In this document: in pieces, positions 3,359-43,677 of the stretch
How positions within the stretch are numbered: the stretch's first letter is position 1
Layout: each line of letters starts with the position of its first letter
Assembly: GCA_011525625.1 (NCBI GenBank)
Contig: WYAX01000014.1
Span: 1 to 64,000 of the forward strand
DNA: 64,000 bases
Direction: 5' to 3'
From: Nitrospira defluvii
Lineage (GTDB): Bacteria > Nitrospirota > Nitrospiria > Nitrospirales > Nitrospiraceae
Made by a program: the position numbers and the translations under genes
Notes under the pieces: model-generated
Database searches by the model: none
The model's input: only the letters and a program-made list of their open reading frames with translations
Told to the model about the DNA's origin: nothing

Positions 3359-3751
3359 ATGGGGAACTTTATTTTTGGGGCGATCATTGCGGTGCTGGGG
3401 CTGGCCTATGTCGGAGGCTGGGATCCTGGCAATGAAGCGGTGGGTGAAATTGTGACCGTTCACCAGATGCCGGATGTGGGCGTCTTGGATGGAGTGCCGG
3501 ATGCCGGTGTGCGCGTGAAGGCCGTGGTGAAGAATGCTGGAAAGAAGGGGGTGCTGAGAGTGCGTGCCAAACTGTCGACTTCAGAAGGGGAGTGGGTACG
3601 AGAGCAGCAGCTACATTTCGACGCAGATGAGACGAAAGACCTGAGGTGGTTCTTTCATGAGCCCACCGTCAACGCATCCAACGTTCAGTCGTGGGTAGAG
3701 GTGTCGCCTGGAGTACGGTCCGTCAAAGAATCGAAAAAGAAAGAAGCCTAA
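3359..3751 (+). CDS. membrane-anchored extracytoplasmic beta-domain protein
   Basis: Encodes 130 residues: one N-terminal transmembrane segment (NFIFGAIIAVLGLAYVGGW) and then a soluble domain of alternating beta strands (VRVKAVVKNAG, LRVRAKLST, LHFDADE), ending in a lysine-rich tail. The strand pattern 'V.A.VKN.G.KG...V.A.L' resembles the FxLYD/CARDB-like immunoglobulin-type domains seen on surface-anchored proteins, but this is inference. The start at 3359 was preferred over the longer frame because AGGGAGG (3346-3352) is 6 bases upstream and the anchor begins at once. Function unknown. Confidence 0.7.
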   Translation: MGNFIFGAIIAVLGLAYVGGWDPGNEAVGEIVTVHQMPDVGVLDGVPDAGVRVKAVVKNAGKKGVLRVRAKLSTSEGEWVREQQLHFDADETKDLRWFFHEPTVNASNVQSWVEVSPGVRSVKESKKKEA

Positions 3752-4000
3752 CGCGGCAGTCTTGAGGCGGTATTGAAGGCTGCTGCCTTCTGCTACAGGC
3801 TTCGGAGTGCAACTGTAGCGCCGCTCCACGGGTCTGGTGCGCACGGCGGCTGTGTATGTTGCAAATCCAGTCCATTCGCCGTGCCAGCTCCATCTGTACC
3901 TGGGCATTGCCTTTGCTCACTCCATGAGAAGGATCTCCGAGGGCTGTCGTCTCGGCAACAGGGAGACCACCTCACATCCTTCTTCACCCAGGGGTGCAAC

Positions 4001-5125
4001 ATGGCAGAGGAACAGAGCACAAAGAGCAGCAACACGATCACGTTGAGTGTGATCAAGGCGGACATCGGCGGGTTTGTCGGCCATTCGGCGATGCATCCGG
4101 CCTTGATGGATTGCGCGAAGGAGAAACTGGCCGTAGCCAAGAAGAGCGGGTTGTTGGTCGATTATCATGTATCGGCCTGCGGGGATGATTTGCAGCTGAT
4201 CATGACGCATCGCCATGGCGTGGACCACGAACCGGTTCATCGGTTGGCGTGGGATACGTTTGAATCCGGCACCGCGGTGGCTAAGGAACTTCATCTGTAT
4301 GGCGCGGGACAGGATCTGTTGGCCGATGCGTTCAGTGGAAATGTGCGCGGGCAGGGGCCCGGTGTCGCCGAGATGGAATTCGTGGAACGCAAATCCGATC
4401 CGGTGCTGATCTTTATGGCGGATAAGACCTCGGCCGGAGCCTGGAATCTTCCGCTGTATAAGATGTTTGCCGATCCGTTTACGACGGCAGGATTGGTGAT
4501 TGCTCCGACGCTGCATCAGGGGTTCCGCTTCGAGGTACACGACATCTACAAACACAAGAAGATCACCTTCGATTGTCCGGAAGAGTTGTACGACATGCTG
4601 ATGTTCATCGGGTCGCCGGGTAAGTATACGGTCAAGGCGGTGTATTCCAGGGCGGACGGCACCATCGCCGCCTCCACCTCCACCGAGCGGCTCTCTTTGA
4701 TTGCAGGCAAATATGTGGGCAAAGACGATCCGGTCATGATCGTCCGCGCGCAGCAGAATTTTCCGGCGGTGGGGGAGGTGCTCGATCCGTTTCGTTATCC
4801 CTGGATCATCGAGGGCTGGATGCGAGGCTCGCACTATGGTCCGTTGATGCCGGTTTCGGTGAAACAGGCGACGCCGACTCGGTTCGATGGCCCCCCGCGC
4901 GTGGCCTGCCTGGGGTTTCAACTGGCCGGCGGTCGGTTGATCGGGCCGCGGGATATGTTCGACGATCCGTCCTATGACGAAGCGCGGCGGGATGCGAATC
5001 GTATCGCCGATGTGTTGCGCCTGCATGGTCCCTTCGAGCCGCATCGGTTGCCGTTGGAGGATATGGAATATACGACGATGCCGCAGATCATGAAGAAGCT
5101 GGAAGGTCGTTGGGGGCAGCTCTAG
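4001..5125 (+). CDS. fbp: fructose-1,6-bisphosphate aldolase/phosphatase (archaeal type V)
   Basis: Bifunctional gluconeogenic enzyme. It condenses dihydroxyacetone phosphate and glyceraldehyde-3-phosphate and dephosphorylates the bisphosphate to fructose-6-phosphate in the same protein. At 374 residues it has the usual length. Family landmarks visible are the N-terminus TLSVIKADIGG.VGHS, the metal-binding SACGDDLQLIMTH, DKT..GAWN, FADPF.TAGLVI, RFEVHD and the long conserved C-terminus. The enzyme is typical of archaea and deep-branching autotrophic bacteria and fits carbon fixation by a reductive route. The frame stays open ~230 bases upstream, but the conserved N-terminus and an AGGGG six bases before 4001 decide the start. 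A cupin gene follows 21 bases downstream. Confidence 0.93.
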   Translation: MAEEQSTKSSNTITLSVIKADIGGFVGHSAMHPALMDCAKEKLAVAKKSGLLVDYHVSACGDDLQLIMTHRHGVDHEPVHRLAWDTFESGTAVAKELHLYGAGQDLLADAFSGNVRGQGPGVAEMEFVERKSDPVLIFMADKTSAGAWNLPLYKMFADPFTTAGLVIAPTLHQGFRFEVHDIYKHKKITFDCPEELYDMLMFIGSPGKYTVKAVYSRADGTIAASTSTERLSLIAGKYVGKDDPVMIVRAQQNFPAVGEVLDPFRYPWIIEGWMRGSHYGPLMPVSVKQATPTRFDGPPRVACLGFQLAGGRLIGPRDMFDDPSYDEARRDANRIADVLRLHGPFEPHRLPLEDMEYTTMPQIMKKLEGRWGQL

Positions 5126-5146
5126 GTTCTCCTCCTTCGAGGTCGT

Positions 5147-5440
5147 ATGATGGCTCCGGTCGATCAACAGGCGGTGGCGTCGGAGTGGCGGGCGAGGGGC
5201 TTCAGTTGTGATCTTTGGGTTGATCCGCCCGGGCAAGTATGGGAGGATTACCGCCACGCGACCGACGAATTGGTCATGCCGGTCGTCGGCCGGTTGGAAC
5301 TGGAATTCGACGGGCGCTGTCTGCGGCCCGTCGTGGGCGAAGAGATCCTGATTCCGGCCGGTGTGCGCCATACCGTCAGAAACATCGGCGGGACGACTGC
5401 TCAGTGGCTCTATGGGTATAAGCGGATGCAGACTGGCTGA
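5147..5440 (+). CDS. cupin-domain protein
   Basis: Encodes 97 residues, a single small beta-barrel cupin. The second cupin motif is clear (IPAGVRHTVRNIG); the first is HATDELVMPVVGRLELEFDG, so one histidine plus the acidic residues could bind a metal. Such single cupins are often sugar or small-acid binding, or metal-dependent isomerases or oxygenases; the substrate cannot be told. It lies 21 bases after fbp and 29 before the ACT-domain gene on the same strand, so a short operon is likely. The start is the first of two adjacent ATG codons, behind GAGG. Confidence 0.82.
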   Translation: MMAPVDQQAVASEWRARGFSCDLWVDPPGQVWEDYRHATDELVMPVVGRLELEFDGRCLRPVVGEEILIPAGVRHTVRNIGGTTAQWLYGYKRMQTG

Positions 5441-5469
5441 TGGACTGACTCACGGAGGGAGAGGAGCCG

Positions 5470-5880
5470 ATGCCGACAACGACGCAGTTTGTGGTGAGTG
5501 GACAGAGCAAGCCGGGTGTGCTGGCGGAGGTGGCGTCCGTGCTCGGCGCCGCCGGGGTCAACATCAAAGCCTTTTCCGCGCCTGAAGTCACGGGGCCCGG
5601 AAAATTGCGGTTGATTGTCGCGGACGTCGATGCCGCGAGGATCGCCCTGAGAAAATCCAAGATCAAATTCCGCGAAGAGACCGCCTTGATCCTCAGCCTG
5701 GAGAACAAACCCGGCGCGTTGAAACAGGTCGCCGATTCGTTGACCAGGGCCCGCATCAACGTGAAGTGCGGCTACTGCACGCCTTCCCGGGAAGGCAAAC
5801 GCGCCATCGTCGTCTTGACGGTGTCCAACACGACGAAAGCCCTCGGGGTGCTGCGCACCCATTCACTCGACGAATTCTGA
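5470..5880 (+). CDS. tandem ACT-domain protein
   Basis: Encodes 136 residues made of two ACT folds: residues ~5-65 (SKPGVLAEVASVLGAAGVNI) and ~70-136 (NKPGALKQVADSLTRARINV). Each begins with the '.kPG.L..va..L...gvNi' signature of amino-acid-binding regulatory domains. No catalytic domain is attached, so it is a stand-alone ligand sensor that probably acts through a partner protein. The SD GGAGGGAGAGGAG is strong. It sits between the cupin and the RlpA-like gene. Which amino acid it senses is unknown. Confidence 0.88.
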   Translation: MPTTTQFVVSGQSKPGVLAEVASVLGAAGVNIKAFSAPEVTGPGKLRLIVADVDAARIALRKSKIKFREETALILSLENKPGALKQVADSLTRARINVKCGYCTPSREGKRAIVVLTVSNTTKALGVLRTHSLDEF

Positions 5881-5888
5881 TCTCCTCC

Positions 5889-6584
5889 ATGCAGAGGGAG
5901 AAGAAGACCGGCACCTCTCGTCTCCTTCTCCCTCTCTTCGTTCTGATTCTGACCTCATGGCTGAACGCGTGCTCTGGCTGGGCTCCGGCCCGCCCTGTGT
6001 ATCCACCAGGATACCCGATCGGTGTTGTCGAACGGGGGAGCGCCTCGTGGTATGGCCCTGGTTTTCACGGCAATCGCACGGCGAACGGGGAAGTCTACGA
6101 CATGCACAAACTGACGGCGGCCCATCGGACGTTGCCCTTGGGGTCGGTGGCCGTCGTGCGCTCCCTGACGACCGGCCGACAGGTCACGGTCCGGATCAAC
6201 GATCGCGGCCCGTTCGCGCGCGGCAGGATTCTCGATCTGTCTCTGGCCGGCGCACAGGCGGTGGGCATGGTCGGGCGGGGTACCGATGACATCGAACTGC
6301 GAGTCGTCGGTTACCAAGGCCGGGCAGGGGAGATGGGTGTCCTACGGGTGCAGGTCGGTTCCTTTGCCGATCCTGCGAACGCGGCTGCGCTGGTGGAACG
6401 CCTGCGCGGAGTCTACCCGGGCACGCGGGCGGTGACGGTGGAGTTGCCCGAGGGACGCCGGTATCGGGTGTATGCCGGACAGTATCAGACGGAAGCGGCG
6501 GCAGAGCAGGCCGCCGGGCATCTCAAGAGGGCCCTCGATACCGACCCGTTTATCGTACGTGATGACACGGTGAGGAGTCCGTAG
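5889..6584 (+). CDS. rlpA: RlpA-like septal ring lytic transglycosylase/SPOR lipoprotein
   Basis: Encodes 231 residues. There is a type II signal peptide with lipobox LNAC (about residues 24-27), then a double-psi beta barrel (about residues 45-140) with the RlpA landmarks ASWYGPGFHGNRTANGE, LPLGS.V.V, VRINDRGPF and RILDLS.AGA. A C-terminal SPOR domain (about residues 150-225) binds denuded peptidoglycan at the division septum. In the family the barrel cleaves naked glycan strands in daughter-cell separation. The start at 5889 gives a normal lipoprotein signal; the frame is open further upstream, inside the ACT gene. It starts 8 bases after that gene. Confidence 0.92.
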   Translation: MQREKKTGTSRLLLPLFVLILTSWLNACSGWAPARPVYPPGYPIGVVERGSASWYGPGFHGNRTANGEVYDMHKLTAAHRTLPLGSVAVVRSLTTGRQVTVRINDRGPFARGRILDLSLAGAQAVGMVGRGTDDIELRVVGYQGRAGEMGVLRVQVGSFADPANAAALVERLRGVYPGTRAVTVELPEGRRYRVYAGQYQTEAAAEQAAGHLKRALDTDPFIVRDDTVRSP

Positions 6585-6862
6585 GGAATCACGAGTGTCA
6601 TCGGGCATGGCTATCAAGCGAAATTGTTGATATCCTGATCTTTCGGCGGCGGGTAGGGAATTGTGGTAACGCTTGATGCGACTGCCTGCCTGTGCTAATG
6701 GTAGTACGCGATGGATGAAAGTGACCCGAGAGGACCAATTCTGGTCGTCTTCTCACGACATGCGGTCAGTCTTGCAGTTCGACCCCTGCGCGTCGAACTG
6801 ATCCAAGCTCTTGACGTTCACACACACAACGTGGTTCGGACTCTCTAACCTCGATAGGTCGT
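6585..6862. other. intergenic region before the CorC-like gene
   Basis: 278 bases without a gene. A sigma-54-like string at 6664 has the wrong GG-GC spacing (see rejected items). TTGACG occurs at about 6812 without a good -10 partner. The imperfect inverted pair 'GTTCGAC/GTCGAAC' near 6776-6798 could form a hairpin ahead of the downstream gene. Nothing else can be supported. Confidence 0.35.
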
Positions 6863-12068
<5,206 letters not shown>

Positions 12069-33894: not shown

Positions 33895-34407
33895 TCAGGC
33901 CTTCTTGTCAGGTGTTTGGTGATGCCATTGAGTAGGTGAGGCTGCAGAGGCCTGATAGGCCTGTCCGAAGCCGAGCACCAGATGGGCGTCTCGCATCCGC
34001 AGTTCCCACAAGGCAAAGTCGCCGAACCCGAACATCATCTTCGACTGGGGGAACTTGGCCAGATACCGTTGTTTGACCGACTCATACGATTCGTGGTCGA
34101 CGGGGAGGATGCGTGCGGTTCCCTGCACATTGAGGCGTTGAAGCGCCAGGGGGTTTTTGCCAGGCTCGTCCGGTTCGGCGATAAACAGGCTGACACGGAA
34201 ATCTTCCAAGAGGTGTTGGGTGTGCAGCGCCAGGCGACTCAGGTGGAGATAGGCGCAAGACCAATCTGCACCCAGCAAGTAAGGGACATGCGAGCCGAAG
34301 GGATGGCCGTTTCTGAGGGTCAGTAACACGCCGGTTCGCGCTCCTGTGATCAGGTGTTCGTACGCGGCTTGAATCTCTTCGTTCGGTTTCGAATCCTGCA
34401 TAGGCAT
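33895..34407 (-). CDS. pyridoxamine 5'-phosphate oxidase-like FMN-binding protein
   Basis: Encodes 170 residues with a split-barrel flavin-binding fold (about 15-130): ARTGVLLTLRNGHPFGSHVPYLL, LHLSRLALHTQHLLEDFRVSLFI, RLNVQGTARILP. The layout is that of the HugZ/PNPOx-like group, which bind FMN, F420 or haem and reduce or sequester small molecules. The start at 34407 is set by a near-perfect GGAGGTGA 4-5 bases upstream. It lies ~95 bases downstream of VanZ in the genome and is divergent from the lipoprotein cluster. Confidence 0.85.
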   Translation of the reverse strand: MPMQDSKPNEEIQAAYEHLITGARTGVLLTLRNGHPFGSHVPYLLGADWSCAYLHLSRLALHTQHLLEDFRVSLFIAEPDEPGKNPLALQRLNVQGTARILPVDHESYESVKQRYLAKFPQSKMMFGFGDFALWELRMRDAHLVLGFGQAYQASAASPTQWHHQTPDKKA

Positions 34408-34590: not shown

Positions 34591-34992
34591 ATGAGACATT
34601 CGCACTGGGGCATGGCGTTGGTAGGAATATGCATATTGATCGGGCTGACCGGCTGCGGCGGAAAACAAGCGGAGATCAAGGAAGACCGGCTGACCGTCGG
34701 ACGGGTACAAGGAGAAGTGAAGGTCGGTATGTCGGCCGCTCAGGTCGCCGAATTGCTGGGGTCGCCGAACATCGTGACCACGGACGACAAACGCCGTGAG
34801 GTGTGGATTTATGACAAGGTGTCGACCGACCGAGTGGACACGGCGAGCTCGACCTACGCCGGATTGATCATTTTGGGCGCGAACTCCAGCGATCGTTCCA
34901 GTTCGCAGCGGCAACGGACCCTGACGATCATCATCAAGTACGACGAAGACAAGAAGGTTCGCGACTTTGCCTACAACTCGACGCAATTCTAG
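34591..34992 (+). CDS. SmpA/OmlA (BamE)-like lipoprotein
   Basis: Encodes 133 residues. The signal peptide WGMALVGICILIGLTGC has lipobox LTGC. The mature part carries a SmpA/OmlA-type domain: VKVGMSAAQVAELLGSPNIV, then REVWIYDK and a late strand LTIIIKYDEDKKVRDF. In other bacteria this fold belongs to BamE, part of the outer-membrane assembly complex, but many paralogues have other jobs. The start was chosen for GGGAGAGG upstream and the signal peptide. It heads a tandem of four lipoprotein genes (34591-36646). Confidence 0.88.
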   Translation: MRHSHWGMALVGICILIGLTGCGGKQAEIKEDRLTVGRVQGEVKVGMSAAQVAELLGSPNIVTTDDKRREVWIYDKVSTDRVDTASSTYAGLIILGANSSDRSSSQRQRTLTIIIKYDEDKKVRDFAYNSTQF

Positions 34993-35584
34993 ACGGATCG
35001 GCCGGAGGCAGCCGCGCGTCTTGGCGGCCCTTCTGCTTGCCGTGGCACTGCCGATGCTCCTGGCCGGCTGCGCTCAACCGACGCAGCCGGCGGAGTTCTT
35101 TCAACTGACGCCGGAGAGCAGTGCGAACCGAGCCATGCAAACACGTGTGTTCGAGACCGCCACCGATCGTGAATTGTTGTCGGCCTCGGCCGCCGCGCTC
35201 CAAGACCTCGGATTTCAGATTGAGGAGAGCGTGGGGGAGGTCGGATTTTTGCGGGCAGCGAAGGAGCGGAGCGCTCGCGAATACGGACAGTATCGCAATC
35301 GGTTTTTCGTCTGGTTGCTGACGCTCGGCCATGTGCTCATCCCGGTCGACCTGCACCAAAAAGTCGCAGCGACCATCGTTGCCAGACCTATCAGCGACGA
35401 CAAATCCCGGCAAGAAGTGCGAATCATCTTCTACCGCGTGGTGTGGAAAGGGGACGGACAGGCGGACCGCAATTATATCCCCCCGGGTGAACAAAAAATG
35501 GAGATGATCCGCGATCAGGAAATCTATCAGCAATTTTTTGCGAAACTTTCCAAAGCCGTCTTTTTGGAGCCGCATGCGATCTAA
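34967..35584 (+). CDS. lipoprotein, tandem paralogue 1 of 3
   Basis: Encodes 205 residues from a TTG start overlapping the previous gene by 26 bases; TTG at 35021 is an alternative, both leaving lipobox LAGC intact. The mature domain shows a pattern shared with the next two genes: MQTRVFETATDRELLSASA, ALQDLGFQIEE, VGFLRAAKE near residue 85, and IYQQFFAKLSKAVFL at the C-terminus. It differs by a ~50-residue insert with a hydrophobic stretch (FFVWLLTLGHVLIPVDLHQ). I know no characterised family. It acts presumably at the outer membrane with its neighbours. Confidence 0.85.
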   Translation: MPTTRRNSRRIGRRQPRVLAALLLAVALPMLLAGCAQPTQPAEFFQLTPESSANRAMQTRVFETATDRELLSASAAALQDLGFQIEESVGEVGFLRAAKERSAREYGQYRNRFFVWLLTLGHVLIPVDLHQKVAATIVARPISDDKSRQEVRIIFYRVVWKGDGQADRNYIPPGEQKMEMIRDQEIYQQFFAKLSKAVFLEPHAI

Positions 35585-35596
35585 ACGTGAGGACAC

Positions 35597-36034
35597 ATGA
35601 ACTGGACTTGGGGAATCAAGGCGATGGCGGTGGTGGCGGGGACTGTCCTTCTCCACGGGTGTGTCGCGCCGGAGCCACGGCAGGAACTTTTTACGCCGAC
35701 CGATGCGCAGATGAAAATCCGGAGCGCGCAGACGCGTTCGTTCGAGGTGAAAGATCAGGCCATCGCGATGCGGGGGGTGATCGCCGCGCTACAGGATCTT
35801 GGCTTCATCATCGAACGAGCCAATGAGCCGCTCGGACTCGTGACGGCGGCGCGCTTCGCCGAACCAAACTATTACGACGTGCTCGGCGTTACGGTGACCG
35901 TGCGCGCTCAGGAGGCCGGGAAAACGATGATCAGGGCCAATGCGATTTACAACAGCAAGCCCATCGACGATCCCAAGGTCTATCAGAATTTTTTTGCGGC
36001 GGTGGAGCGGTCATTGTTTCTGGTGAAGGACTAA
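35597..36034 (+). CDS. lipoprotein, tandem paralogue 2 of 3
   Basis: Encodes 145 residues, the shortest of the trio. Lipobox LHGC at about residues 19-22. Shared core: IRSAQTRSFEVKDQAIAM, ALQDLGFIIERANEPLGLVTA, and VYQNFFAAVERSLFLV. It begins 12 bases after paralogue 1 and ends 3 bases before paralogue 3. It probably represents the minimal form of the domain, since the other two carry inserts between the second and third conserved blocks. Confidence 0.87.
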   Translation: MNWTWGIKAMAVVAGTVLLHGCVAPEPRQELFTPTDAQMKIRSAQTRSFEVKDQAIAMRGVIAALQDLGFIIERANEPLGLVTAARFAEPNYYDVLGVTVTVRAQEAGKTMIRANAIYNSKPIDDPKVYQNFFAAVERSLFLVKD

Positions 36035-36037
36035 CCG

Positions 36038-36646
36038 GTGCGTCGCCTGTGCGTCTCTGAGGGGATCGTCGCCTGGCCGGGCGTGTTCCGCAGCCCTCTT
36101 GCGACGGTTGGTCTGTTGTTGTGGCTCCTGTCGACGCTCGGGTGTTCACCCTATGAGTGGCGTCACGAAAACCAATGGGAGTCGAGGGATCAAATCTGGC
36201 TGTCCGAGTCCAGCCAGGTGAAGGTGCGTGCTGCGCAAAGCCGGATCTTCGACACCACCGATCGTCTGAAAACTATCCAAGCGGTCGTCTCCACCTGCCA
36301 GGATCTTGGATTTGCGGTGGACGTACTTGATGAGACGCTGGGTATCGTCTCTGCCAAAAAGTTTGACGACTATGAACCCTCGCGTCTCCATGACGCGTCC
36401 TACCACTTGTACCGGGACGATGGCCTCTTGATCCTCACGCGACAGTTCCGAAGCTGGGGGCCGTTTTATCACCGCAGCAACCTTGTGCGTCTGACCGTGA
36501 CCGTCCGACCGCGCGGGACGACGCAGTTGGTCGTACGGGCCAGTGCCCAGTATTACCTCAAAGCCGTCGAATCGCCTGAGCCCTACCAACAGTTTTTTCG
36601 TACGCTCGAGCAAGCGTTGTTTGTGCAAGCCAATATGCTGCCGTAA
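36038..36646 (+). CDS. lipoprotein, tandem paralogue 3 of 3
   Basis: Encodes 202 residues from GTG. The signal peptide SPLATVGLLLWLLSTLGC has lipobox TLGC. Shared core: VRAAQSRIFDTTDRLKTIQ, TCQDLGFAVDVLDETLGIVSAKKF, and PYQQFFRTLEQALFV. A ~45-residue insert (about 112-150) rich in Tyr, Arg and His separates blocks two and three. It starts 3 bases after paralogue 2, so the set is one transcription unit. It ends convergent with the oxygenase-like gene 48 bases away. Confidence 0.85.
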   Translation: MRRLCVSEGIVAWPGVFRSPLATVGLLLWLLSTLGCSPYEWRHENQWESRDQIWLSESSQVKVRAAQSRIFDTTDRLKTIQAVVSTCQDLGFAVDVLDETLGIVSAKKFDDYEPSRLHDASYHLYRDDGLLILTRQFRSWGPFYHRSNLVRLTVTVRPRGTTQLVVRASAQYYLKAVESPEPYQQFFRTLEQALFVQANMLP

Positions 36647-36694: not shown

Positions 36695-37405
36695 TCAGCG
36701 GCTGGGTTGGCCGGCGACAGTCTTCTGAGTTTCGTTGAACGTCGCGGACGTCAACACCGGATCGAGGTTAAACGCCACACTGATTCGAGGCGCCACTCCA
36801 TGATACGTATTCACGGCATGAAACAGCCACCCAGGAAACAACAGACACTGACCTGAAGCCGGAGTATAGGAGATGCTGGTGCCGGCATCATGTAATTCGG
36901 TCATGCTGTATTGGAGATAGGGCGCCAGCATGCGCGGCAGGCAGCCCCGTGGATCATAAATCTGCAACTCTCCGCCCTTCTCCTGTTCAGGGCACACTTC
37001 CCCCACATCGACGTAATAGACCCCAGCCCAAAAACTGCCCGGATGTGAGTGGGCTGCATTGGCGCCGCCGTGCCGTTGCACGTTGGCCCACACTTCAACC
37101 ACATCCCAGTCGGGTCGGCGATGTCCATGGCTGCAGCGCTCGGATAGAGTCGTGACTTGTTTGGCCACTTCGATCACAGGCGCAAACAAAGCCCGTAACG
37201 GCTCACCCGCCCACTCCAGCATCGACAGATCGTGCGGAGAAGACCAACCGATGACCTCCGTGTCCCGGTGCGTCGGAACGGAGGCTTCACGCTGCAAAAT
37301 TAATTCGGAAAGCGCGGCGTTGATGCGTTGGTAGTCAGCCGGAGTGAATACCAGCAGAGGCGTGGAAAAAAGCGGCGTGAGCTGGATCTCGATCTCGGTC
37401 GGCAT
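36695..37405 (-). CDS. putative Fe(II)/2-oxoglutarate-type oxygenase (TIGR02466-like)
   Basis: Encodes 236 residues. The jelly-roll iron site is suggested by HSHPGSFWAGVYYVDVGE and by the late LLFPGWLFHAVNTYHG, with RISVAFNLDP as the final 2-oxoglutarate Arg strand. This is the pattern of the TIGR02466 group of putative 2OG-Fe(II) oxygenases. The substrate is unknown. The start ATG at 37405 begins the conserved domain (TEIEIQLTPLFSTPL); no good SD is visible, and a start at 37465 remains possible. Confidence 0.8.
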   Translation of the reverse strand: MPTEIEIQLTPLFSTPLLVFTPADYQRINAALSELILQREASVPTHRDTEVIGWSSPHDLSMLEWAGEPLRALFAPVIEVAKQVTTLSERCSHGHRRPDWDVVEVWANVQRHGGANAAHSHPGSFWAGVYYVDVGEVCPEQEKGGELQIYDPRGCLPRMLAPYLQYSMTELHDAGTSISYTPASGQCLLFPGWLFHAVNTYHGVAPRISVAFNLDPVLTSATFNETQKTVAGQPSR

Positions 37406-37589
37406 GGAGGGTGTCCCATACTGATCTACGACCGTCGATGCGCCGCACGGTAGCCTCCGATACAAACGAAAGTCAACCTAGGGATTTGCCCAGGGCGCTC
37501 CAACGGAACGGTGCCACGGTATGAGTGCCTCCATGTGCGGCATGGACGCACAGGGGTAACCCGTCTGCGTTGAAAAGGCGGCGATCGGC

Positions 37590-37868: not shown

Positions 37869-38029
37869 CCAGGGTCGTCCGTGAGGCGTCGCTGAAGCGG
37901 CCTGTGTGCCCGACCGTTGTGACGCATCGCATCTATGCCCGATATGCCGCTGGATTCTTGCCGTTAAAGGGAGGACAATACCGAACAACGCAGTGGAACG
38001 GTCGCACCTCTCAGGTTTCGTCGGACGCT

Positions 38030-39556
38030 ATGCTGATGTCCACGCCGGTTTCCACGCAGCCCGCTCCTACGATTCTCATTGTCGATGACGATCCCGACAT
38101 TTCCCTCGTTCTCCAAGATTTGCTCGAGCACGCCGGCTATTGTGTTCAGGTGGCCGGAACTGGCGCGGATGCTCTTGCCAAGGTCAAGGCGAAGTCTTTC
38201 TCCGCGGTGCTGCTGGATTTGATGCTTCCCGACATGGACGGGCTCTCCGTGTTGACCCTCGTGAAAGAACTTGATCCGGTCCTGCCGGTGATTATGTTGA
38301 CAGCGTTTGTGGAGGTGGCGAAGAAACATGCGTCTCTCACCGAAGGCGCGTTCGGGTACCTGACGAAACCCTATGATGGGGAGGAGGTGAAGGCGCTGAT
38401 CAAGAGGGCGGTCGGGGTCAAATATCTTTCCCTGGAAGCCGCCTCAGCTCGGCAGGCCTTAACCGCCAGCGAAGAGCGATTTCGAGAGGTCGTCCAGACT
38501 GCCCCCGACGCCATTGTGCTGGCCGATGGAGAGGGCTTTATCCTGTCATGGAATAGCGCGGCGGAACGCCTGTTCGGGTATGCAGCCGCAGAGATTCTGG
38601 GACAGTCGCTCACGAGAATCATGCCGGAACGGTACCGTGCCGACCATGAACGGGCATTGGCGCGGGTGCGCACGACCGGAGACCTGCGTCTGAAGGGCAC
38701 CGTCGTCACCATGCACGGGTTGCATCAGGACGGACGGGAGTTTCCCATCGAGATGTCGCTCAGCAGTTGGATGTCCGGCGGGCAACGGGTGCATTGCGGC
38801 ATTGTGCGCGACATCACGGCGCGAAAGGAAGCAGAGGCACGGTTGCTCCAGCAGCAGATCGAGCAACAGGTTCTCCTGGATTTGATCCCCGCGATGGTCT
38901 GGTACAAGGATTCACACAACCGTATTCTGCGCGCGAATCGGCGGGCTGCCGAGTCGTTGCACAAGAGCGTGGCGGAGATCGAAGGCCATCCCACCGATGA
39001 ATTTTATCCGGACGAGGCCGAGCGGTATCATCAGGACGATTTGGAGGTGATCGTATCCGGGCGCGCGAAACTCGGCATCGTCGAGCCGTATCGGGCCGGT
39101 TCGGGTGAGAAGCGTTGGGTGCAGACCGACAAGGTGCCCTATCTCGACACGCGAGGCACGGTGGTAGGCGTCTTAGTATTTGCGCAGGACATTACCGAGC
39201 GGAAACGGCAGGAGGCGGCCTCTCAGGATCGGGAGGACTTGCTGCGCCTCGTGATGGAGTCGGCGATGAATAGCCTCGTCGTGGCCGACGTGGAGGGTAA
39301 GATCGAGATGGCCAATAGGCAGGCGGAGCAGCAATTCGGCTACGAGGTTGGCGAACTCCCCGGTCAACTGCTGATGCAGGTGTTAGCCCATCCGCTGTGC
39401 GATACTATTGCTATGACGGCACCTGAGGTCGGACATGGAATGGGAAGGCGCAAAGACGGTACCGAATTCCCAGTTCGTATCCAGGTTCGACGGTTGGACA
39501 CGTCGACGGGTGTGCATGTCGTCGTGGCGATCTCTCCCGCGGAAGTGCCCGCATGA
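38030..39556 (+). CDS. REC-PAS-PAS-PAS regulator without output domain
   Basis: Encodes 508 residues from the ATG at 38030. A receiver domain (about 15-130) has ILIVDDDPDIS, the phosphoacceptor Asp in LLDLMLPDMDG, the Thr in IMLTAF and the Lys in YLTKPYDGEE. Three PAS domains follow (about 145-275, 290-410, 425-505), each with 'WN.AAERLFGY'-, 'RANRRAAESL'- or 'MANRQAEQQFGYEVG'-like strands and C-terminal DITARKEAE and DITERKRQE caps. No kinase, GGDEF, EAL or DNA-binding domain follows. The frame is open back to 37865, where ATGA overlaps the small gene; that longer start would add 55 basic, non-REC residues. It probably relays through protein contacts. Confidence 0.88.
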   Translation: MLMSTPVSTQPAPTILIVDDDPDISLVLQDLLEHAGYCVQVAGTGADALAKVKAKSFSAVLLDLMLPDMDGLSVLTLVKELDPVLPVIMLTAFVEVAKKHASLTEGAFGYLTKPYDGEEVKALIKRAVGVKYLSLEAASARQALTASEERFREVVQTAPDAIVLADGEGFILSWNSAAERLFGYAAAEILGQSLTRIMPERYRADHERALARVRTTGDLRLKGTVVTMHGLHQDGREFPIEMSLSSWMSGGQRVHCGIVRDITARKEAEARLLQQQIEQQVLLDLIPAMVWYKDSHNRILRANRRAAESLHKSVAEIEGHPTDEFYPDEAERYHQDDLEVIVSGRAKLGIVEPYRAGSGEKRWVQTDKVPYLDTRGTVVGVLVFAQDITERKRQEAASQDREDLLRLVMESAMNSLVVADVEGKIEMANRQAEQQFGYEVGELPGQLLMQVLAHPLCDTIAMTAPEVGHGMGRRKDGTEFPVRIQVRRLDTSTGVHVVVAISPAEVPA

Positions 39557-40432: not shown

Positions 40433-42562
40433 ATGGCCACCAAGACATCACGCCCACGTGCCGCCTCCTCCGCACCCATACCACCCTCCGATTCGAGTGA
40501 GCCAGCCGCGACGACGTCACGCAAGCAGACGCAGGCCGGAGTTTCGTCTGCTCCCGCAGTGACGGCCGTGGAGATGGGTGCGCGGCAGCGGGAGATTTCC
40601 GTCTCGGAGTTTTTCACGAAGAACCGGCATCTGCTCGGATTCGACAATCCGCGCAAGGCGCTGCTGACCTGCGTCAAGGAAGCGGTCGACAATTCCTTGG
40701 ATGCCTGTGAGGAAGCCGGGATTCTTCCCGACGTGACCGTAAAACTCGAAATCGTGACGACCGGCCAGACGCCCGTTGCGCCGAGCCAGGCGACGCGGTT
40801 CCGCATCACCGTCACCGACAATGGGCCCGGCATTGTCCGCCAGCAGATTCCACGCGTATTTGCGAAATTGCTCTACGGGTCGAAGTTTCATCGCATGCGC
40901 ATGAGCCGTGGACAGCAGGGCATCGGCATTTCTGCCGCCGGCATGTACGGGCAACTGACGACCGGGAAACCCGTGAAGGTCATTTCCCGCACCGGCCCGC
41001 GAGCGGCGGCGCACTATTTCGAAGTGCAGATCGACACGAAGAAGAATGAGCCGCTGGTGCACGAAAATAAACAGATCGAATGGCATCAGCCGCAGGGGAC
41101 CGAGGTGACGCTCGAAGTCGAGGGACGGTATCAGAAGGGGCGCGCGTCGGTCGACGAATGGCTGGAGCAAACATCGATTGCGAATCCCCACGTGCGGCTG
41201 ACCTACCGGACTCCGGAGGGGGAGACGAAGGAGTACCCGCGTTCCTATCACGAGCTGCCGCCGTCGCCGAGGGAAATCAAACCGCATCCCTACGGCATTG
41301 AATTCGGTGCCCTGCTGAAAATGTTGCAGGACACGAAGAGCCAGACGGTCGCCGGGTTCTTGGCCGGCGACTTTTGTCGTGTCTCACCGGCGCTGGCGGA
41401 AGAGATGTGCAAAGCGGCCAAACTCTCGCCCACCACGAAGCCCCGTGACGTGAAGCCCCAGGCCGCGGAGGGACTGTATCACACCATCCAGGCCACAAAA
41501 ATCATGGCGCCTCCGACAAACTGTATTTCGCCGATCGGGGAAAAGGCGATTCTTTCGGGGTTGTACAAGCAGATCAAGGGCGAGTTTTATACGGCGGTCA
41601 GTCGGCCGCCGGCCGTGTATCGCGGTTATCCGTTCGTCATCGAAGCGGGGCTGGCTTTCGGGAAAGGCCCGGAGGAGGCGACCAAGCCTCAGCAGGCCAG
41701 CGTGCCGCTTGCAGAGGGTGAAGACCAGGGGCATGAATCGGAATTGGCCCGGGTGATCCGATACGCGAATCGAGTGCCGTTGCTGTATCAGCAGTCCGCC
41801 TGTTCGACCTTCAAGGCCGTGCTCAGCACCACGTGGCGGAACTACGGCGTCACGCAATCCCGTGGGGCCTTGCCGGCCGGGCCCATGGTGATCTTCGTGC
41901 ATATGGCGTCCGTCTGGGTCCCGTTCACCAGCGAGTCGAAGGAAGCCATTGCGGACTACGATGAAATCCAGAAAGAAATCACCCTGGCGCTGCGCGAGGC
42001 GGGACGTCGATTGGGGATCTTTCTCCGTCGGCGTGAGCGGGCGGCGAGCGAGTTCCGGCGGCGCAATATTTTCGATCTCTATATCGAAGAGGTCGTTGCG
42101 GCCTGCAATCGCTTGAAAGGCGGGACTCTTCCGACCGAGAGGTTGAAAGCACAGTTACACAAGATCGCCAGTTCACGGACGGGTGGGCTCAAGACCGACG
42201 AAGCGCTGGGGAAGACCGGTGCCGGGCCGGAAGGACTGCCGCACTCGATCATCGTCACGGCCGAAGGGATTGAAGGCGAGACTGAGATCGCTCAGCAAGC
42301 TCCTGTGTCGCAGGCCGACTCTCCGGCGCCCATGCCTCCGGATTCGAGCCCGACACCGAAATCGCCCGCACGGGGAAGGCGAGTCGTCAAGCCGACGCCT
42401 GTCAGCGTAAACAGCAAGGCGACCGGGAAGGCCAAAGGCGCAGGGGCCCAGCAGGAGATGTTCGCCGCCGAACCGGTGCAGGCGAAGAAGGCGGCGCCGC
42501 GAAGAACATCGCCTCGAAAGACTTCATCCGGCGCCGCAAGGCCCACCCGCAAAAGGACGTAG
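40433..42562 (+). CDS. top6B: DNA topoisomerase VI subunit B
   Basis: ATPase subunit of a type IIB topoisomerase that passes one duplex through another. 709 residues. The GHKL fold is visible: N box KEAVDNSLDACEEAG (about 83), G1 DNGPGI (about 129), G2 GQQGIGISAAGMYGQL (about 161). The H2TH and transducer domains follow with the late lysine loop QSACSTFKAVLSTTWRNYG. A ~45-residue Ser/Thr/Pro-rich N-terminal extension and a ~100-residue Ala/Pro/Lys-rich C-terminal tail (KSPARGRRVVKPTPVSV...) extend the family core and may bind DNA. The enzyme is common in archaea and plants but patchy in bacteria. Confidence 0.95.
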   Translation: MATKTSRPRAASSAPIPPSDSSEPAATTSRKQTQAGVSSAPAVTAVEMGARQREISVSEFFTKNRHLLGFDNPRKALLTCVKEAVDNSLDACEEAGILPDVTVKLEIVTTGQTPVAPSQATRFRITVTDNGPGIVRQQIPRVFAKLLYGSKFHRMRMSRGQQGIGISAAGMYGQLTTGKPVKVISRTGPRAAAHYFEVQIDTKKNEPLVHENKQIEWHQPQGTEVTLEVEGRYQKGRASVDEWLEQTSIANPHVRLTYRTPEGETKEYPRSYHELPPSPREIKPHPYGIEFGALLKMLQDTKSQTVAGFLAGDFCRVSPALAEEMCKAAKLSPTTKPRDVKPQAAEGLYHTIQATKIMAPPTNCISPIGEKAILSGLYKQIKGEFYTAVSRPPAVYRGYPFVIEAGLAFGKGPEEATKPQQASVPLAEGEDQGHESELARVIRYANRVPLLYQQSACSTFKAVLSTTWRNYGVTQSRGALPAGPMVIFVHMASVWVPFTSESKEAIADYDEIQKEITLALREAGRRLGIFLRRRERAASEFRRRNIFDLYIEEVVAACNRLKGGTLPTERLKAQLHKIASSRTGGLKTDEALGKTGAGPEGLPHSIIVTAEGIEGETEIAQQAPVSQADSPAPMPPDSSPTPKSPARGRRVVKPTPVSVNSKATGKAKGAGAQQEMFAAEPVQAKKAAPRRTSPRKTSSGAARPTRKRT

Positions 42563-42570
42563 GACAGGTT

Positions 42571-43677
42571 ATGGCACAGGCGAAAGCGAAGAAAAACGGA
42601 GCCGTGGCGAAGAAGCTCGTCGGCATGGCCGATGTGGTGATTGCGGCGGCGCAGCGAGCGAAAGATCCGACCTTCGAGATTCCGATGCGCGCCCTGTCGA
42701 ACGTATCGTTCAACCCCCGACGAGGGCTGATCGAGATGGGCGACAAGAAACAAGCGCGGTCGTTCTTTAACGTCGGTATGGCGAAGAAGTTCATGCAGAC
42801 CATGCTCGTCGCCGATGCGCTGGCGGAGTTACAGCAGGCCGATCTGACCACGTCGCTGAGGGAGATTTATTACCGGACCAAACATACGATTCAAGACTCC
42901 CACGAGAACACGTTCGATACGCAGGACGAGTCCGATCCGATCATCGAGGATCTGGAAGTGTCGCTCATCGCCCTGCGCGAGGAACTGCATGTGCGGGCGG
43001 AAAACAGCGGGAGTATTGTGGGGCCGGTGGTGTTCGGCGATGACGGCGATCGGGTAGACTGCGCCAAGCTCGGCAAGGGCGGCTATTCCGTCCCCTCGAT
43101 CGTCGAGCCGGAGTATCTCGAAATCCGCCGTTGCACGGCCGACTTTCTGCTGTTGGTCGAAAAGGGCACCCAATGGAACCGCCTCTCCGAGGACAAGTTC
43201 TGGCGACGGTACAATTGCGTGTTGCTCACCGGCAATGGTCAGCCTCCTCGGGGCGTCAGGAGGCTCGCGCGACGTCTGCACGAAGAGTACAAGTTGCCGG
43301 TCTACGTGCTGGTGGACAACGATCCCTGGGGATACTATATCTATTCCGTGGTGAAACAGGGGTCGATCAATCTCGCGTTCGAGAGCCAGCGCATGGCGAT
43401 CCCCAAGGCGAAATTCATCGGGTTATCCAGCGCCGATCCGGAACGGTATGAGTTGCCGAGGAACGTGGGGATTAAGCTGAACGAGAAGGACATCACACGT
43501 GCCAAAGAACTCCTCAACTATCAGTGGTTCCAAAAGCCGGCGTGGCAGCAGGAAATCAAGCGGATGCTCACCAGCGGGCTGAAATACGAACTGGATGCCC
43601 TGGCCAACAAAGACTTTCAGTATTTAACCAAAAAGTACCTGCCGCGCAAATTGAAAGAGAAGGATTGGCTGGACTAG
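42571..43677 (+). CDS. top6A: DNA topoisomerase VI subunit A
   Basis: Catalytic Spo11-like subunit that cleaves DNA through a tyrosine. 368 residues. The 5Y-CAP domain has the active-site tyrosine in SLREIYYRTKHTI (about residue 98). The Toprim domain has the metal-binding glutamate in LLLVEKGTQWNRL (about 195) and the DxD in VLVDNDPWGYYIYS (about 248). FGLSSADPERYELP-type sequence near residue 285 is typical of the family. It follows top6B by 8 bases, with AGGACAGG as SD, so the two subunits are made together. Confidence 0.96.
   Translation: MAQAKAKKNGAVAKKLVGMADVVIAAAQRAKDPTFEIPMRALSNVSFNPRRGLIEMGDKKQARSFFNVGMAKKFMQTMLVADALAELQQADLTTSLREIYYRTKHTIQDSHENTFDTQDESDPIIEDLEVSLIALREELHVRAENSGSIVGPVVFGDDGDRVDCAKLGKGGYSVPSIVEPEYLEIRRCTADFLLLVEKGTQWNRLSEDKFWRRYNCVLLTGNGQPPRGVRRLARRLHEEYKLPVYVLVDNDPWGYYIYSVVKQGSINLAFESQRMAIPKAKFIGLSSADPERYELPRNVGIKLNEKDITRAKELLNYQWFQKPAWQQEIKRMLTSGLKYELDALANKDFQYLTKKYLPRKLKEKDWLD

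Follow-up and report, generated by a model that had tools for sequence, protein, structure and literature searches.

A conserved and partly mobile gene set encoding a BamE-domain lipoprotein and paralogous lipoproteins with a predicted helix-grip fold in Nitrospira and other bacteria

The four-gene locus and its surroundings

The stretch of DNA analysed here (the window) comprises 64,000 nucleotides of Nitrospira defluvii (contig WYAX01000014.1, positions 1 to 64,000, forward strand). It contains four lipoprotein genes, hereafter the cassette, which lie head to tail on the plus strand. The initial annotation, made from the sequence without database searches, had described a BamE-like lipoprotein gene followed by three tandem paralogous genes, and all four were found at the coordinates it gave, with intergenic gaps of -26, 12 and 3 bases, the first being a 26-base overlap of genes 1 and 2. 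The paralogues are named A, B and C by gene order (genes 2, 3 and 4). The features and the evidence for them are:

34591..34992, plus strand: gene 1, BamE-domain lipoprotein, 133 aa (Pfam PF04355; orthologues lead the cassette in the relatives examined; cross-phylum alignment)
34967..35584, plus strand: gene 2, paralogue A, lipoprotein, 205 aa (BLASTP with genes 3 and 4, tree, AlphaFold2, Foldseek)
35282..35350, plus strand: hydrophobic insert of paralogue A, about residues 106-128, GQYRNRFFVWLLTLGHVLIPVD (hydropathy of A-type members; AlphaFold2 helix)
35597..36034, plus strand: gene 3, paralogue B, lipoprotein, 145 aa (BLASTP, AlphaFold2, Foldseek)
36038..36646, plus strand: gene 4, paralogue C, lipoprotein, 202 aa, with an aromatic insert in the homologous core (BLASTP, tree)

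Genes 1 to 4 start with ATG, TTG, ATG and GTG, respectively, and the orthologues of gene 2 share a conserved '[ML]PTT' N-terminus, which speaks for the TTG start of that gene. The lipobox cysteines are found in LTGC (Cys22), LAGC (Cys35), LHGC (Cys22) and TLGC (Cys36), and they are followed by G, A, V and S, respectively, with no Asp among them. According to the sorting rule of E. coli, lipoproteins without Asp after the cysteine go to the outer membrane, and by this rule outer-membrane sorting is indicated for all four products. Scans for promoters and terminators in the locus gave no clear signal.

The product of gene 1 reached PF04355 with 27 bits (cut-off 23.2), confirming that it is BamE-like, and it was the sole match over the cut-off in this genome, which has three weaker ones. 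It carries the signature GSPNIVTTD..RREVW.YDK.ST. With regard to narrower families, it scored 17.4 bits against OsmE (NF008423, cut-off 65) and so missed the equivalog level, and it matched phrog_3135 (PHROGs), a family of unknown function.

Three genes close to the cassette encode the following products, none of which looks tied to it:

33895-34401, minus strand: pyridoxamine-phosphate-oxidase-like protein
36695-37417, minus strand: putative 2OG-Fe(II) oxygenase
37988-39556, plus strand: response regulator with PAS domains

Further downstream the window encodes a DNA topoisomerase VI B subunit (40433-42562, plus strand; Pfam Topo-VIb_trans, E 2e-53), and the next ORF (42571-43677, plus strand) reads like the A subunit; archaea and plants are the main known sources of topoisomerase VI. 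Genes beyond the BamE-like partner vary between genomes and neighbours differ between phyla, so that the neighbourhood was given up as a guide to function.

Paralogy, predicted fold and relation to BamC

The three sequence blocks that the initial annotation had seen in genes 2 to 4 are real and above chance, as judged by BLASTP between the paralogues (E = 3e-11 for genes 2 and 3, 2e-17 for genes 3 and 4, and 3e-6 for genes 2 and 4) and by the 23 invariant columns of a three-way alignment. Different inserts between blocks two and three were also borne out: gene 3 has none, that of gene 2 is strongly hydrophobic and that of gene 4 is aromatic. Hydrophobicity is a general property of the A-type insert (median best 14-residue Kyte-Doolittle mean of 2.0 in 64 members). 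No Pfam or NCBIfam family was reached with conviction by genes 2 to 4 or by the 93-member family alignment, in agreement with the earlier statement that the trio belongs to no described family. PADLOC and PHROGs returned no more than weak matches for the paralogues, and a search of the whole genome (4.6 Mb) revealed no family members beyond these three.

Structure prediction, which had been proposed for the single proteins, gave one helix-grip domain each for genes 2 and 3. The AlphaFold2 model of gene 3, built from 93 sequences (a few rows from annotated records were left out of the structure inputs), has a pLDDT of 89.7 and shows, after the signal helix, the order b-a-b-b-b-b-a, a minimal helix-grip domain without an insert. 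The model of gene 2 (pLDDT 81) has the same core plus the helical hydrophobic insert, with a helix predicted at residues 106-118. In Foldseek searches the twelve best PDB hits of gene 3 (E 6.7e-6 to 2.1e-4), mostly to the N-terminal helix-grip domain, and the nine best of gene 2 (E 7.3e-4 to 2.6e-3) were all E. coli BamC. TM-scores of gene 3 against BamC were modest (0.36-0.47 by query length), and a second structural comparison gave BamC a Z of 10.4 (rmsd 3.5, 101 aligned), tying with Flpp3, KA1 and Bet v 1-type domains. As the helix-grip fold is common to many unrelated proteins, it should be underlined that the tied Z-scores and modest TM-scores support the fold class better than any special kinship with BamC. 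At this level the models confidently predict a single BamC-type helix-grip domain in each of genes 2 and 3.

A profile comparison pointed in the same direction. With hhalign, the mature domains aligned to the BamC N-domain with E 8.6e-4 over 105 columns (probability 23%) in the structurally correct register, while reversed profiles and BamE, used as controls, gave E 0.18-0.49. Mature domains were used because signal peptides, when kept, misleadingly placed BamE above BamC. This profile similarity is suggestive of a relationship to the BamC N-domain. The family profile was also run against PDB sequences and hit RNase H only, at chance level (E 0.028 or worse).

The modelled paralogues are nevertheless not BamC, since each has one domain and the long BamD-binding lasso is absent from both models. 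The distance from the lipobox cysteine to the first strand is about 24 residues in genes 2 and 3 versus about 75 in E. coli BamC, the latter counted from what we take to be its mature start (the 2laf domain begins at residue 101). The BamC family PF06804 did not match the three window paralogues, and of the 93 members a single one hit it, at E 0.012 only; the similarity thus stays under the Pfam cut-off. A canonical BamC was not found in this genome, whereas a gammaproteobacterial genome (G681) holds the family and canonical BamC together, indicating that the cassette comes as an extra and not as a replacement linked to the loss of BamC.

Distribution, history and mobile copies

Among Nitrospira relatives the order BamE-A-B-C was constant apart from a few departures: contig ends, a decayed copy in N. 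moscoviensis and a locus with a broken C. In the decayed copy (L129, 5470-6927) A lacks its start, the BamE-like gene is gone, B has no signal peptide and C is still open. In the other (L090, 6622-10766) C is interrupted and reads as two ORFs; roughly 3 kb downstream there is a second ORF of the C type. Some relatives of the same genus have no orthologue of gene 1 and three have no cassette; this patchiness, together with the decay in N. moscoviensis, indicates that the cassette is dispensable.

BamE-A-B-C was also present in records titled Nitrospinaceae, Deltaproteobacteria, Nitrosomonas and Methylomonas, the binning of the last two being unsure. The cassettes from the bins labelled Nitrosomonas and Methylomonas (L140 and L143) branch with Nitrospinota copies and may be binning errors or transfers. 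A form with two paralogues (BamE-A-C) occurs in records titled Alphaproteobacteria, Rhodospirillales, Planctomycetota and Deltaproteobacteria, as well as in Gammaproteobacteria, and a form with one A-like paralogue in Leptospirillum-like genomes, deep Nitrospirota and small genomes. The 'gene triplication' of the initial annotation therefore represents no more than the largest common state. Because the smaller versions also carry the BamE-like gene, the basic unit is this gene plus one A-like paralogue.

At E <= 0.01, profile searches recovered family members from 68 of 295 Nitrospirota genomes. At E <= 1e-6 they did so from 16 of 289 genomes in the class to which L150 belongs and 13 of 321 in that of L143 (by title Alphaproteobacteria and Gammaproteobacteria, respectively), and from 8 of 198 in the phylum of L144 and 6 of 199 in that of L152 (by title Planctomycetota). 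In these four groups outside Nitrospirota, the family has a BamE-like gene next to it in 36 of the 41 evaluable genomes (12/15, 11/13, 7/7 and 6/6, in the order above), counting one locus per genome and leaving out loci cut by contig ends. At one alphaproteobacterial locus (L181 of G537, 3569-6458) the BamE-like gene lies amid five family genes on both strands. The cassette, or its end, is also present on three 'viral' IMG/VR contigs (L177, L178 and L179).

In a maximum-likelihood tree built from 65 family members, the lineages A, B and C follow gene position; rows labelled off-pattern there correspond to loci where a member is missing or untrimmed. A formed one group with support 99/95 when the single-copy outgroups were left out, the join of the single-copy proteins to A being unsure owing to long branches. 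B formed one group as well (85/81), and C grouped with the second paralogue of the systems that have two (93/96), which hence consist of A and a C-type gene. Gain in the order BamE plus A, then C, then B would be the simplest story. The initial annotation had named as evidence against itself a known single-copy family with a strain-specific tandem; such an arrangement disagrees with lineages that track gene position across many Nitrospira and Nitrospinota genomes. Pairwise distances over 70 loci correlated between BamE and A (r = 0.87) and between BamE and C (0.70); both correlations are expected of co-inheritance and are not by themselves proof of contact.

In a tblastn search of plasmids the set appeared on two Azospirillum brasilense replicons and on the 8-kb Acinetobacter baumannii plasmid p4E072658 (CP061710.1, L154), whose annotation lists the products as three hypothetical proteins; BamE with one paralogue is found on a Vibrio plasmid. 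On p4E072658 the BamE-A-C genes (4892-6277) are the sole genes between two inversely oriented pdif sites:

CP061710.1, 4749-4776, plus strand: pdif site 1, 3 mismatches
CP061710.1, 6327-6354, minus strand: pdif site 2, exact

No such sites arose in 100 shuffles. The sister plasmid NZ_CP133719.1 is homologous to p4E072658 up to each site (3837-4759 and 6323-7930) and has a cold-shock gene and hypothetical genes between the sites instead of the cassette. The flanking sites and the differing content identify this plasmid copy of the cassette as an exchangeable pdif module of the kind known from Acinetobacter, whose cargo is often adaptive or stress genes (PMC6449649). On at least one occasion, the whole set has been transferred from one replicon to another. 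The same plasmid holds a sulP gene between two further pdif sites (1821 and 3618). Taken together, the gene set is real, conserved and partly mobile; it is new in family, composition and spread, being described nowhere in the literature searched, and its building blocks are domains of known kinds.

A possible outer-membrane accessory complex and its known counterparts

BamC and BamE are accessory lipoproteins of the E. coli BAM complex, with helix-grip domains in BamC (PMC13067283, PMC3359395). BamC has two such domains and grips BamD by an N-terminal lasso, while BamE contacts BamA and BamD (PMC13067283). The reading we favour, with a confidence somewhat short of even, is that the cassette encodes an accessory outer-membrane lipoprotein complex of a BamE-domain lipoprotein and one to three BamC-like helix-grip lipoproteins. 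The linkage fits the four products being subunits of one assembly, which would probably act on BAM or outer-membrane assembly. In favour of a complex are the paralogy, the fixed BamE-A-B-C or BamE-A-C order, the BamE adjacency, the tree lineages that track position and the BamE/A co-divergence, as well as the helix-grip models with BamC as top hit, the profile similarity to the BamC N-domain, the genome without BamC and the status as sole pdif cargo. As sole cargo the cassette presumably must work with components already in its hosts, and its recurrence in distant groups and its swap-in on the Acinetobacter plasmid make it look like a portable outer-membrane accessory. The wider proposal is more doubtful: a portable BAM-accessory module, independent of or ancestral to E. 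coli BamC/BamE, that spreads across phyla (also by Xer/pdif) and adjusts OMP assembly in its hosts. Counting against BAM are the commonness of the fold, the absent lasso, the patchy cassette, the coexistence with BamC in G681, and the fact that no bam gene was recognised among ten annotated neighbour proteins.

The proposed complex could work as follows. Once sorted, the lipoproteins would sit in the inner leaflet of the outer membrane, where the BamE-like and helix-grip subunits may bind each other in a hetero-oligomer; hydrophobic inserts, those of paralogue A as well as of the BamE-like protein, would dip into the membrane. The complex would assist machinery that Gram-negative cells have in common, BAM being the likeliest candidate, and, like BamC and BamE in E. 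coli, tune membrane integrity or the assembly of outer-membrane proteins. Paralogues B and C would be subunits added later with divided roles.

Some of the same evidence can be read otherwise. By Z-score the fold is equally near Bet v 1-type proteins, Flpp3 and BamC, and paralogue A has hydrophobic inserts, so that the products might form a ligand-binding envelope cassette in which Bet v 1/START-type cups at the outer membrane hold a hydrophobic molecule or lipid, with a BamE-like anchor and no BAM role. The adaptive or stress genes often found in pdif modules (PMC6449649) would agree with this, but BamC was the Foldseek top hit of both models and the constant partner is a BamE-domain protein; we regard it as unlikely, though the strongest of the rivals. 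The weak OsmE match of the BamE-like protein and the variable number of paralogues (one to three or more) would instead suit linked but independent, co-regulated envelope-stress lipoproteins (OsmE-like and others) that never form a complex. Such independence seems quite improbable given a gene order kept across phyla amid variable surroundings; the co-divergence of BamE and A argues the same way, though co-transfer alone would give it too. Patchy spread, decay in N. moscoviensis and carriage on plasmids and between pdif sites are typical of surface- or entry-exclusion and anti-phage traits, and three IMG/VR contigs contain the cassette, which might thus have spread by protecting the envelope from phage or conjugation. 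This has little probability in our view: PADLOC gave no match of note, a search of a phage collection gave none, annotated neighbours show no steady link to defence genes, and the cassette is deeply conserved in Nitrospira.

Returning to the accessory complex that we favour, comparison with known systems shows where the cassette stands. Its plasmid copy shares with other Acinetobacter pdif modules (OXA-24, sulP, ohr and others) the discrete, exchangeable cargo between inversely oriented XerC/XerD sites, the cargo here being a three-gene lipoprotein cassette. If the complex is real, a family that travels with a BamE-like partner would hint, in a form open to testing, that accessory factors of outer-membrane assembly can pass from species to species as cassettes. 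Gene 1 resembles BamE (SmpA/OmlA, PF04355) as a small lipoprotein with a BamE domain, and is set apart by its own signature, by an insert that is hydrophobic or Gly-rich, and by being steadily linked to the helix-grip family; OsmE, a BamE-like stress lipoprotein, is matched only weakly and far under the cut-off. BamF, the alphaproteobacterial BAM lipoprotein, has a disordered N-terminus with the BamF motif and no helix-grip domain (PMC3359395). The Francisella lipoprotein Flpp3 is a single-domain helix-grip lipoprotein and gave the highest Z of the second structural comparison (11.2), but the identity of the match is only 9%. We know of no BamE partner or paralogue operon for Flpp3.

The closest comparison is with BamC (NlpB, PF06804), likewise a lipoprotein of helix-grip fold, the top Foldseek hit of both modelled paralogues and a weak profile match. 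The cassette paralogues differ in having one predicted helix-grip domain per chain rather than two and in occurring outside the beta- and gammaproteobacteria. In a widespread undescribed family of single-domain lipoproteins that travels with a BamE-like partner, the accessory complex would provide a simple natural BamC-like/BamE-like pair beyond those groups. The description also gives a name to a gene set that, though conserved, is at present listed under 'hypothetical proteins' in nitrite oxidisers as well as in many other bacteria. The paralogues differ from BamC also in their arrangement, as one to three tandem copies behind a BamE-like gene.
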